The translations under genes and the position numbers were made by a program. This document shows, one piece after another, positions 57,605 through 60,427 of a stretch of DNA of 64,000 bases (position 1 is its first letter; every line of letters begins with the position of its first letter). Below the pieces are notes generated by a model that made no database searches, was not told the DNA's origin, and was given only the letters and a program-made list of their open reading frames with translations. The DNA comes from Nitrosospira sp. Nsp11 (GTDB taxonomy: Bacteria > Pseudomonadota > Gammaproteobacteria > Burkholderiales > Nitrosomonadaceae), in the NCBI RefSeq assembly GCF_900142705.1, contig NZ_FRBV01000008.1, positions 1-64,000 of the forward strand, read 5' to 3'.

Positions 57605-57802
57605 AATATTTGTGCTATGTTTCTTATGGTCGTTCTTGTCTCCAAACGATATCGCATTATTCAAGAATGGCGGAGGTTGTTTAATATCGGGTTTCTGCGC
57701 ACGTCGAAGTCAATCGCAAAAAAAACTGGTCGATAAAAGTCGACACAACAACCGGTTTTTCGCTGAGTTTCGTAACATCCCTAACATATACAGGAGAACA
57801 TG

Positions 57803-58183
57803 ATGTCCAACAAAAAATCCCTTATTTCTATCGCAATAGGCTCCGCTTTTGTCGCTACTCTCGGTACGGTACCGGGTGTTTCTGCGGCCGATAATCCATT
57901 TACCATGCAGTCCCTCGACAAAGGTTACATGGTGGCCGATTCCCATAACTATGGCGAAAAGAAAGGTGGAGAAGGTAAGTGCGGCGGTGAAGGCGCATGC
58001 GGCGAAGGCAGGTGCGGCGCGGCTATGGCAGATGCGAATCGTGACGGCAAGATCACCAAGGAAGAATGGACGAAGCATCACGACGCCATGTTTGAACATA
58101 TGGATACCGACAAGGATGGCGTTATCACTAAAGATGAAAAGAAGGGCAAAATGAAAGACGGCAAGTGCGGTAGCAGTAAATAA
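57803..58183 (+). CDS. EF-hand precursor peptide, cysteine-rich (HvfA/BufA-like), first copy
   Basis: A 126-residue secreted protein. A signal peptide ends at VSA-ADNPF; then come SLDKGYMVA, a Gly-rich stretch with EGKCG (Cys60), EGACG (Cys66) and EGRCG (Cys71), two complete EF-hand loops (D77-x-N-x-D-G...E88 and D101-x-D-x-D-G...E112) and a final DGKCG (Cys122). The EGxCG motif is the site where DUF692 oxidases convert cysteines in HvfA-type peptides. DUF692 and DUF2063 genes follow. The ATG at 57803 has AGGAG at 6 nt, better than 57800. The likely product is a metal-binding peptide exported to the periplasm. Confidence 0.85.
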   Translation: MSNKKSLISIAIGSAFVATLGTVPGVSAADNPFTMQSLDKGYMVADSHNYGEKKGGEGKCGGEGACGEGRCGAAMADANRDGKITKEEWTKHHDAMFEHMDTDKDGVITKDEKKGKMKDGKCGSSK

Positions 58184-58256
58184 CTTAAGAGACCATCTGA
58201 ACAATTTCTAGCTATTGTCAAATCCCTGGTCGTCTTTGTTTTGTACGGCTTGGCCT

Positions 58257-58361
58257 CCGCTTTCCTGTGCCTCATCCAACGCAGGAAAGCGGGGTTCTAC
58301 CAGCCGTCGGACTTGAAGAGAAGAATCGCAGCTTTTGCAGCTGATTTCCTTCAAGTCTGAC
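58257..58361 (+). repeat. two strong stem-loops between the EF-hand peptide genes
   Basis: Stem-loop 1: arms 58257-58267 (CCGCTTTCCTG) and 58282-58292, 11 perfect pairs. Stem-loop 2: arms 58306-58318 and 58349-58361, 13 pairs including one G:U, with a smaller CAGCT/AGCTG hairpin inside its loop. Neither ends in a T-run. They fill most of the 255-bp gap between the two precursors. Confidence 0.65.
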
Positions 58362-58438
58362 AGCTGCCTGGTTAAGGCAATCCCCAATTCATTCGAACTG
58401 TGACATAATATTCCATCCAAAAATTAGGAGAAAATACT

Positions 58439-58828
58439 GTGCGCAACAAGAAAACCATGATTTCGCTGACCGTTGGTTCTGCCCTTGCCGCTACACTTGG
58501 CGCTGTACCGTTCGCCTCCGCGGCAGACAGCCCTTTTACCGCTCAATCCCTGGATAAGGGCTATGTGCTGGCGTATGCCGATAAGGTAGACCCTAGCAAA
58601 TATGGCGCTGGAGCAAAATCCGGTGAAGGTCGATGCGGCATGTCGATGGTAGATGCCAATAAGGACGGCAAAGTCACCAAGCAAGAATTTCTCAAGCATC
58701 ATGAAAACATATTCGACAGGATCGATGCCAACAAGGATGGGGCAGTGGATCAGCCTGAGGCCGATAGCTATGGGGGAAGCAAGCCAAGTGCGCCGAACAC
58801 GGCCCCCCATGCTGGAATGAAGAAGTAA
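58439..58828 (+). CDS. EF-hand precursor peptide (HvfA/BufA-like), second copy, single cysteine
   Basis: A 129-residue paralogue of the preceding peptide, sharing the signal peptide and the SPFTAQSLDKGYV segment, but with only one cysteine, Cys66, in EGRCG. Both EF-hand loops are intact (D72-x-N-x-D-G...E83; D96-x-N-x-D-G...E107), and the tail is Pro/Ser-rich. It starts with GTG, with AGGAG 8 nt upstream. The DUF692 gene begins 11 bp after its stop. The signal peptide implies export after modification in the cytoplasm. Confidence 0.83.
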   Translation: MRNKKTMISLTVGSALAATLGAVPFASAADSPFTAQSLDKGYVLAYADKVDPSKYGAGAKSGEGRCGMSMVDANKDGKVTKQEFLKHHENIFDRIDANKDGAVDQPEADSYGGSKPSAPNTAPHAGMKK

Positions 58829-58839
58829 TTTTTCCCGTC

Positions 58840-59691
58840 GTGGAATTCCTGCCTCGTGCCAGTGCAGGTCTCGGTTTTCGGCGGGAATTGATCCCAGCGT
58901 TAAAAGCCGGTGTTCCCGATGCCATTGATTTCTTTGAGATCGCACCGGAAAACTGGATTGATCTTGGAGGCATTCTGGGGCGCGATCTGTGCGTTTTCAC
59001 TGAGCGCTACCCTTTTGTCTGCCATGGCCTTTCGCTCTCGATCGGCAGTCCGGCGCCGCTGGACGAGGTATTGTTGAAAAAAATCCGGCGGTTTCTGGAT
59101 CGACATCAAATCCGCTTTTACACCGAACATCTTTCCTATTGCTCCGACGATGGCCATCTATACGATTTGCTTCCGATACCATTTACTGAAGAAGCAGTGA
59201 AATATGTGGCGGCGCGCGTTCGCAGCGTCCAGAACATTCTGGAGCGACGCATCGCGTTGGAAAATGCTTCGTTTTACGTTCAGGCGCCGATCGCCGAGAT
59301 GAGCGAAGCGGACTTTATTCGCGCTGTATTGGTCGAGGCGGATTGCGATCTGCATCTCGACGTCAATAATGTATACGTCAATAGCATTAATCACGCCTAC
59401 GACCCGATCGAATTTATCCGTGCGATGCCTACCGAGCGCATCGTTTATATGCATATGGCCGGTCACTATAATGAAGCGGAGAATTTGATTATAGATACGC
59501 ATGGGGCGGACGTGATCGATCCAGTATGGTCATTGCTTGAGCAAACCTACCATATCCATGGCGTGGCGCCCACTCTGCTGGAGCGCGATTTCAATATCCC
59601 GCCCCTCCACGAACTGGTGCGTGAAGTCGAGCGCATCGGCTTGATCCAGACCCGGTATCGGGGACCGAGCCATGGGTATGCCGCTTCCTGA
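58840..59691 (+). CDS. DUF692 multinuclear non-heme iron oxidase (HvfB/BufB-like peptide maturase)
   Basis: A 283-residue TIM-barrel enzyme of the MNIO (DUF692) family. Probable iron ligands are visible in their usual order: EIAPENW (Glu33/Glu37/Asn38 region), CHGLSLSIG (His62), TEHLSY (Glu96, His97), LENAS (Glu141, Asn142), LHLDVNNVYVN (Asp174, Asn176), YMHMAGH (His205, His209) and IDTHG (Asp219, His221). Relatives oxidise cysteines in partner peptides to oxazolone/thioamide or thiooxazole groups that bind copper. The GTG start is 11 bp after the second peptide gene. It overlaps the DUF2063 gene by 20 bp, pointing to a complex. Confidence 0.9.
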   Translation: MEFLPRASAGLGFRRELIPALKAGVPDAIDFFEIAPENWIDLGGILGRDLCVFTERYPFVCHGLSLSIGSPAPLDEVLLKKIRRFLDRHQIRFYTEHLSYCSDDGHLYDLLPIPFTEEAVKYVAARVRSVQNILERRIALENASFYVQAPIAEMSEADFIRAVLVEADCDLHLDVNNVYVNSINHAYDPIEFIRAMPTERIVYMHMAGHYNEAENLIIDTHGADVIDPVWSLLEQTYHIHGVAPTLLERDFNIPPLHELVREVERIGLIQTRYRGPSHGYAAS

Positions 59692-60427
59692 ATTTCAGCG
59701 CCTCCAGTACGCTTTCACTGCGCATATACGCAACCCCAAGATAAACCCTTGCCCGCGCGGTATTGACACGCGACGCATGGAAATATACAGAAGGCTGGTT
59801 TACAACAATCTCGAGAGTTTTCTCCTGACCTGTTTTCCCGTGCTCCATAGAGTGCTGGGAAAACGGCGGTGGACGCGACTCATGCGCTGTTTCCTCGCCA
59901 CGCATCGCAGCCGCTCGCCTTTTTTTCGCCAAATACCCGATGAGTTCATCCACTTCCTGCAGAGCGAAGAAGCGATACCGGCAAATTATCCGGAATTCGT
60001 GCTGGAGCTCGCGCATTACGAGTGGGTAGAACTCGCTCTTTCCATTTCAACCCTGGCGCCGGCTTGGGGAGCGATCGACCGGGAAGGTGGCTTGCTGGAA
60101 CAGCGTCCGGTTTTAAATCCCGTGTTCGCTAACCTTTGTTATAACTGGCCAGTGCACCGTATTGGTCCCCACACACGAGTCGAGCAAACAGAAACCTACC
60201 TGCTCGTATTTCGCGATGCGGATGATCAGATTCAATTCACCGAAATAAATGCGTTTACGTCACGCCTGATAAATCTCCTCGCTTCTGCTGAGCATACGGG
60301 CAAAGCGGCGCTTCAAATCATTGCCATGGAAAGTCAGCATCCCTCGCCTGAGGTCGTAATTCAGGGCGGGTTTGAAATCATGCGCGATTTAATGGCGCGT
60401 GGCGCGATACTGGGCGTTTCCAAATAA
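59672..60427 (+). CDS. DUF2063 peptide-binding partner (HvfC/BufC-like)
   Basis: A 251-residue protein. The N-terminal DUF2063 domain includes the family run RRLVYNNLESFLLTCFPVLHRVLG and FLATHRSRSPFFRQIPDEFIHFL; the rest is the winged-helix-like C-terminal part ending FEIMRDLMARGAILGVSK. DUF2063 partners bind precursor peptides and present them to the DUF692 oxidase. Its 20-bp overlap with that gene fits a stoichiometric complex. It starts at 59672 (or an ATG two codons later). The DoxX-type membrane protein often found next in hvf/buf operons is missing. Confidence 0.88.
   Translation: MGMPLPEFQRLQYAFTAHIRNPKINPCPRGIDTRRMEIYRRLVYNNLESFLLTCFPVLHRVLGKRRWTRLMRCFLATHRSRSPFFRQIPDEFIHFLQSEEAIPANYPEFVLELAHYEWVELALSISTLAPAWGAIDREGGLLEQRPVLNPVFANLCYNWPVHRIGPHTRVEQTETYLLVFRDADDQIQFTEINAFTSRLINLLASAEHTGKAALQIIAMESQHPSPEVVIQGGFEIMRDLMARGAILGVSK

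Follow-up and report, generated by a model that had tools for sequence, protein, structure and literature searches.

Where enzymes of the MNIO (DUF692) family act on EGxCG motifs, their products have mostly been examined as metal-binding peptides with several sites. Here, we examine one such enzyme in a window of 64,000 nucleotides from Nitrosospira sp. Nsp11 (contig NZ_FRBV01000008.1, positions 1 to 64,000), in which a four-gene operon at positions 57,803 to 60,427 encodes two exported precursors with EGxCG-type motifs and EF-hand calcium loops, followed by the MNIO and its DUF2063 partner. Related products on record are the captophorins (oxazolin HvfA, gonophorin, fontiphorin), which depend on HvfB/HvfC-type enzymes and whose precursors carry several EGxCG repeats behind a Sec signal that serves as leader (PMC13097082, PMC13419390). 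The same recent papers assign a 5-thiooxazole, and neither an oxazolone nor a thioamide, to the MNIO class at issue. The EGKCG products bind copper, and their pathways are often induced by excess copper, gold or oxidative stress; among the enzymes, FonBC accepts an Arg at motif position 3, as in EGRCG (PMC13097082). Neither of these two papers mentions EF-hands (0 occurrences), which sets the captophorins apart from the precursors of this operon.

The fusion of such motifs to calcium loops is itself on record. Antoine et al. 2025 (PMC12452194) describe proteins in which a signal sequence and a short EGKCG domain, termed unstructured, are fused to two EF-hand_5 domains and encoded with MNIO and DUF2063 genes, and they suggest roles for these chimaeras that involve copper plus calcium. 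Earlier, EfhP (PA4107) of Pseudomonas aeruginosa was found beside DUF692 and DUF2063 genes (Sarkisova et al. 2014, PMC4053335), and a 2024 mBio paper counts four EGKCG repeats in it (PMC11559002); the protein has two EF-hands and is required for the calcium-dependent regulation of iron uptake (PMC4053335, PMC11559002). The original prediction for this stretch, made from the DNA alone, presented the EF-hands as unlike anything in the described small Cys-rich peptides. This main claim of novelty falls in view of these three papers, and we likewise dropped the idea that MNIO precursors with an EF-hand are a novelty. The combination of an EF-hand with a modified cysteine is known; what is added here is that the calcium module adjoins only one target cysteine, conserved throughout the genus. 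In the limited collection of literature that we searched, we came across no description of the single-site form, nor of the Cys-EF spacing treated below; no paper joined Nitrosospira and EF-hand, and EF-hand, ribosomally synthesised and post-translationally modified peptide (RiPP) and metallophore came together only in PMC12452194, the main text of which holds no word beginning with 'nitros'.

We find it reasonably likely that the products of the operon belong, in EF-hand form, to the EGKCG (oxazolin/captophorin) class, by which we mean the full explanation, including the modification, the calcium fold, the Cu(I) site and a shared enzyme pair. The products are probably periplasmic EF-hand proteins with one thiooxazole, and they probably bind Cu(I). 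In the cytoplasm, the unfolded precursor would be recognised by HvfC and HvfB through its signal peptide and the NPF...LxxGYM stretch next to it, and the cysteine of EGxCG would be oxidised to a 5-thiooxazole, with a loss of 4 Da per site, the modified product being then exported by Sec. In the periplasm, the two EF-hand loops would bind calcium and the protein would fold, placing the modified residue where the entering helix of EF-hand 1 begins; there, Cu(I) may be bound by this residue alone, with another molecule or with a nearby His. Across the genus, the main substrate would be the single-site protein encoded beside the enzyme, and the same enzyme pair would also act on another EF-hand precursor, encoded away from the operon, and on a multi-site precursor that varies among genomes. 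What we observe directly are the genes, the motifs, the iron ligands, the conservation and the spacing. The thiooxazole chemistry, the use of the signal peptide as leader and the binding of copper are borrowed here from the papers on relatives. As for the coupling of copper, or of another soft metal, to calcium, we raise it only as a hypothesis.

Genes and motifs of the operon

All four genes lie on the forward strand (+). Precursor 1 (57803-58183) begins with an ATG, although a start at 57800 is also possible (ATGATG), and it comprises a Sec-type signal, the leader NPFxxxxLxxGYM, four cysteines in EGxCG-like motifs (60, 66, 71 and 122, numbered from 57803) and the EF loops DANRDGKITKEE and DTDKDGVITKDE. 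Precursor 2 (58439-58828, GTG start) also has a signal and a leader, but its sole cysteine, Cys 66, lies in EGRCG with the first Asp of the EF loops 6 residues further on; its loops are DANKDGKVTKQE and DANKDGAVDQPE, with an HH pair between them, and the protein ends in the tail MKK. Signal peptides were judged by eye. Pfam EF-hand_5 matches both precursors above its cut-off of 25.9 (44.8 and 36.5 bits, respectively), over two stretches in each, and an EGKCG-type region precedes the EF pair, with three motifs in precursor 1 and one in precursor 2 as read by eye. With MNIO and DUF2063 genes following, both precursors have the make-up of the published Buf_EGKCG/EF-hand_5 chimaeras, with the differences that one precursor here is single-site and that the Cys-EF spacing was not encountered in the available text of PMC12452194. 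EfhP, going by its published description, shares with the operon precursors the EF-hand pair, the EGKCG motifs and the DUF692 and DUF2063 neighbours; unlike precursor 2, it carries four EGKCG repeats, and it has been studied as a calcium sensor for iron uptake.

The MNIO gene (58840-59691, GTG start) scores 432.5 bits against the NCBIfam model NF003818 'HvfB family' (cut-off 360), and the DUF2063 partner (59672-60427, ATG start), which has DUF2063 and NGO1945_C domains and overlaps the MNIO gene by 20 bp, scores 275.9 bits against NF050145 'HvfC family' (cut-off 142). The operon does not fit a Buf1 (DUF2282)/BufB system, the BufB model NF050167 staying below its cut-off (262 bits for 310) and no DUF2282 match being listed at E ≤ 1. 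By sequence, the nearest solved relative of the MNIO is 3bww (E 1.1e-78). Ten iron-binding or catalytic residues were mapped by motif from VcMbnB (PMC8888699) and HvfB (PMC13419390), and all are present in the MNIO of the operon (H62, H97, E141, D174, N177, H205, D219, H221, E248 and D250), as they are in 117/117 distinct MNIO rows of at least 230 amino acids, from loci gathered by BLAST, and in 23/23 MNIOs of the genus. On all these points the original prediction holds: the two exported EGxCG precursors, each with two canonical EF-hand loops, the DUF692 protein with its full set of ligands and the overlapping DUF2063 gene are all found, and the buf/hvf-like architecture that it proposed, together with the likely chemistry of an MNIO and a DUF2063 protein acting on EGxCG cysteines of exported precursors, is supported.

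Kinship with lanmodulin, which has four loops where each precursor has two, was considered and rejected. The core profile does match 6mi5 over a stretch of equal length spanning two loops, but the precursors reach only 22.7 and 22.9 bits against the lanmodulin model NF053806, far below its cut-off of 135, and a loop spacing of 24 residues is shared by many other bacterial EF cores (41/49 of those without an MNIO, in the sample described below).

A single-cysteine precursor across the genus

We sampled 23 genomes of Nitrosospira in the wide sense, own genome (G000) included. In 22 of them, the open reading frame (ORF) adjoining the MNIO on its 5' side encodes a two-loop EF-hand protein with a single cysteine in its mature part, and a gap of 6-48 bases separates the end of this gene from where the MNIO alignment begins; the exception, G113, has a six-Cys EF form in this place. 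The gene order is therefore kept in related genomes, where the original prediction would have been contradicted by its absence. All 22 single-Cys ORFs fit EG[RKN]CGMS, a pattern that was also used to cut out their core. Over this core (44 codons, 22 genes), the ratio of nonsynonymous to synonymous substitution rates (dN/dS) has a median of 0.068 and a maximum of 0.33 among the 126 of 231 pairs passing the dS filter; the core is under purifying selection and no product of chance.

The other precursors vary more from genome to genome. Further 5', a multi-Cys precursor is found in 10/23 genomes; it bears EF-hands in seven (G000, G094, G096, G100, G103, G104, G109) and lacks them in three (G095, G111, G114). 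The 4-Cys EF form seen in precursor 1 occurs in 7/23 genomes, own genome counted. Two frames matching a loose leader pattern were set aside, one in L011 (no Cys) and one in L026 (three Cys, no EGxCG-like site). Away from the MNIO, all 23 genomes encode a further EF-hand EGRCG protein with the Cys 6 residues before the EF Asp; its leader matches the pattern in 17 of them, and in the other six the N-terminal part was found by similarity. In own genome, this putative trans precursor, the third EF-hand precursor there, with EGRCG and a His-rich tail, lies far from the MNIO at G000:C15 ~84.2-84.8 kb (L091 813-1361; L240 6213-6761), between argJ-like and AAA-ATPase-like frames that were named by eye. 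In G104 (L094), the unit formed by EGxCG and the EF pair is present twice in the trans precursor, which gives four EF loops. In some counterparts of the trans precursor, a further Cys (RHC) lies between the two loops.

Counting sites, a precursor with two or more was found in 12/23 genomes. In the other 11 (G097, G098, G099, G101, G102, G105, G106, G108, G110, G112 and G115), a search with an EF-less precursor and a scan of the loci, which may miss short precursors whose leader has diverged, brought up only precursors with one EGxCG site. G101 is counted here after a leaderless frame was discarded as spurious, and G108 has a third, weaker similarity match in which no EGxCG site was seen. The MNIO is uninterrupted in 10 of these 11 genomes; that of G115 (L017) has one in-frame TAG and still all mapped ligands.

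These counts bear on whether a lone motif can be modified at all. In vitro, FonBC modified a two-repeat peptide and not a one-repeat one (PMC13097082), and precursor 2 has one site; this is the main argument against its modification, and it is what makes the genus useful. One may accordingly propose that modification is confined to the multi-site precursors and that the single-Cys EF proteins are unmodified periplasmic calcium proteins whose lone thiol would lead to disulphide dimers or to nothing, and the 12 genomes with a multi-site precursor would agree with this. We regard it as quite unlikely, however, given that the other 11 keep the MNIO ligands with no multi-site precursor found, that the EG[RKN]CGMS motif is present in every single-Cys ORF and that the single-Cys gene sits so close before the enzyme. 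The published two-repeat requirement is thus strained by the 11 genomes that showed only one-site precursors. With about half of the genus seemingly limited to single-site EF-hand precursors, a clean system becomes available, with one site, one calcium module and one enzyme pair, in which one can ask if an MNIO pair acts on a protein with only one motif, and if EfhP-like proteins couple the binding of copper to that of calcium.

A sharper proposal can be drawn from this, although we hold it to be improbable as a whole. The Nitrosospira MNIO pair would be no peptide maker; it would modify, at one site each, the members of a small EF-hand protein family (one encoded beside it, one in trans with a His-rich tail). 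The thiooxazole would sit where the first EF-hand helix begins, and calcium occupancy would then set the binding or release of Cu(I). If true, this would place a calcium-set exchange of Cu(I) in the periplasm of a bacterium whose living depends on copper enzymes.

Cysteine-to-loop spacing and history of the calcium module

The distance between the last motif Cys and the first EF Asp was counted in 103 distinct EF-pair cores from 215 loci, 54 with an MNIO in the locus and 49 without. In the MNIO-linked cores, it is 6 residues in 47, 7 in one, 8 in one and 9 in five, and all 54 thus fall within 6-9. In the cores without an MNIO, it is 6 in seven, 7-10 in seven and 11 in two, the Cys being farther away or absent in 33 (14/49 within 6-10). 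The two groups also differ in the EGxCG-like motif (54/54 vs 19/49), the leader motif (51/54 vs 10/49) and the presence of exactly two EF loops (54/54 vs 22/49). The seven non-MNIO cores with the Cys at -6 all carry the leader and therefore look like substrates encoded in trans; for six of them, an MNIO is found elsewhere in the genome, among the matches listed. An invariant distance of 6 was rejected as too general, since outside the window's family 14/21 cores have the Cys at -6, five at -9, one at -8 and one at -7. The HH pair between the EF loops was also rejected as a general feature, being kept in the operon precursors of the genus and absent in distant cores (L064, L204).

EF-hand precursors do occur beside DUF692 genes in other genomes. 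Among the best 80 of a longer list of loci gathered by MNIO similarity, two-loop EF precursors occur at 23 and EGxCG precursors lacking the two loops at 47, and at 10 we could find no precursor. An MNIO tree of 107 rows was built from these 80 named loci and 28 picked ones (10 from the family search, 6 stretches and 12 obtained via the EF profile, which enrich EF), minus one duplicate, and labelled as 44 EF, 52 not EF (including L158, with one degenerate loop) and 11 without precursor found. On this tree, the EF label changes at least 10 times among the 96 labelled rows, by a quick method that leaves 44/104 inner branches open, and setting the EF group against all other rows gives 11 changes, 5 of them forced by starred branches. 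The EF module thus came or went several times, and the Cys nevertheless stays 6-9 residues from the EF loop. As natural controls, six Nitrosomonas-type MNIO loci were opened (L103-L108, MNIO 61-66% identical); they have EGKCG precursors without EF hands. EF-hand matches lying off the MNIO in this group (L099, L100 and L102, the three passing the filter among the four opened, L099-L102) are His-rich, with CEH before the loop, and have neither EGxCG nor leader; family-wide, many matches of the core profile in the Nitrosomonas-type group start past the Cys columns, among the matches listed.

Alternatively, the EF-hand pair would be no more than a stable carrier fold that limits proteolysis, calcium and copper being bound independently. 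The EF-less forms seen at the same place in sister loci and the EF-less first precursor of three genus genomes speak in its favor, and we give this explanation some weight while leaning against it: the Cys-EF spacing is restricted to 6-9 residues, and in G104 the motif and the EF pair are repeated together, as one unit.

Besides the one-repeat result with FonBC, several observations weigh against the EF-hand captophorin reading that we prefer. Both precursors stay under the cut-off of the HvfA model NF050137 (KCGExKCG twice), with 19.3 and 14.8 bits for 19.5. The AlphaFold2 (AF2) model of precursor 2, built on 27 rows, is weak overall, with a mean predicted local distance difference test (pLDDT) of 58.2 and a predicted template modelling score (pTM) of 0.31, and a Foldseek search of the PDB with it gave no match at E ≤ 0.001. 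In this model, residues 71-110 reach a pLDDT of ~80, the N-terminal part is mostly low and a short helix runs from residue 68, just past C66-G67; the prediction is compatible with a Cys where the helix entering the first EF-hand begins, with no metal site visible in it. The MNIO-linked cores are not independent rows, since 33 of the 54 come from the window's own family, and profile A1, the source of most cores and of most of those without an MNIO, includes the Cys columns, which introduces an ascertainment bias. No copper or DoxX gene is present among the six neighbouring genes scanned, genome-wide copper genes and copper-regulator sites not having been searched. Lastly, G021, a genome of the family (L241, G021:C77; 99% complete), has a leader-bearing single-Cys EF precursor and no MNIO match found.

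Upstream element and genomic surroundings

A 14-base element resembling an extended -10 promoter, TGTGACATAATATT, lies at 58399-58412 (+), with 26 bases separating it from the start codon of precursor 2. It is identical in each of the 22 loci of the genus where the single-Cys gene is present, in the midst of diverged DNA, and own 3.2 Mb genome holds one exact copy, with two further places at one mismatch. If this element is a promoter, then the single-Cys gene and the enzymes would have a promoter of their own. A general scan yielded 5 promoter-like signals vs a shuffle mean of 3.8 and 7 terminator-like ones vs 4.0, and Rfam gave 0 matches.

The six neighbours scanned are DksA-like, S15, PNPase, methyltransferase, HI0933-like and DEAD helicase genes. 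With no evident signalling partner among them, they give little ground for an EfhP-like calcium sensor, in which the modification would tune calcium signalling or iron sensing and copper would be secondary or irrelevant. The precedent of EfhP, with its four EGKCG repeats, its pair of EF-hands, its DUF692/DUF2063 neighbours and its calcium-dependent role in iron uptake (PMC4053335, PMC11559002), favors such a sensor, whereas the copper binding of EGKCG products and the induction of their pathways by copper, gold and oxidative stress (PMC13097082) do not, and we deem it unlikely.

Own genome has one MNIO at E ≤ 0.001. Within the family, 97/125 genomes have an MNIO match, and a plasmid search with the MNIO returned 352 records, every one below 60% identity. 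In L110 (G012), the EF precursor is found on the 3' side of the DUF2063 gene and not 5' of the MNIO. In L022 (G077) and L030 (G022), the MNIO is ~81-82% identical to that of the window and has no recognisable precursor within 1.5 kb on its 5' side; among the matches listed, the EF precursor match shares its contig with the MNIO in G077, at a distance of ~6 kb, and is carried by another contig in G022.

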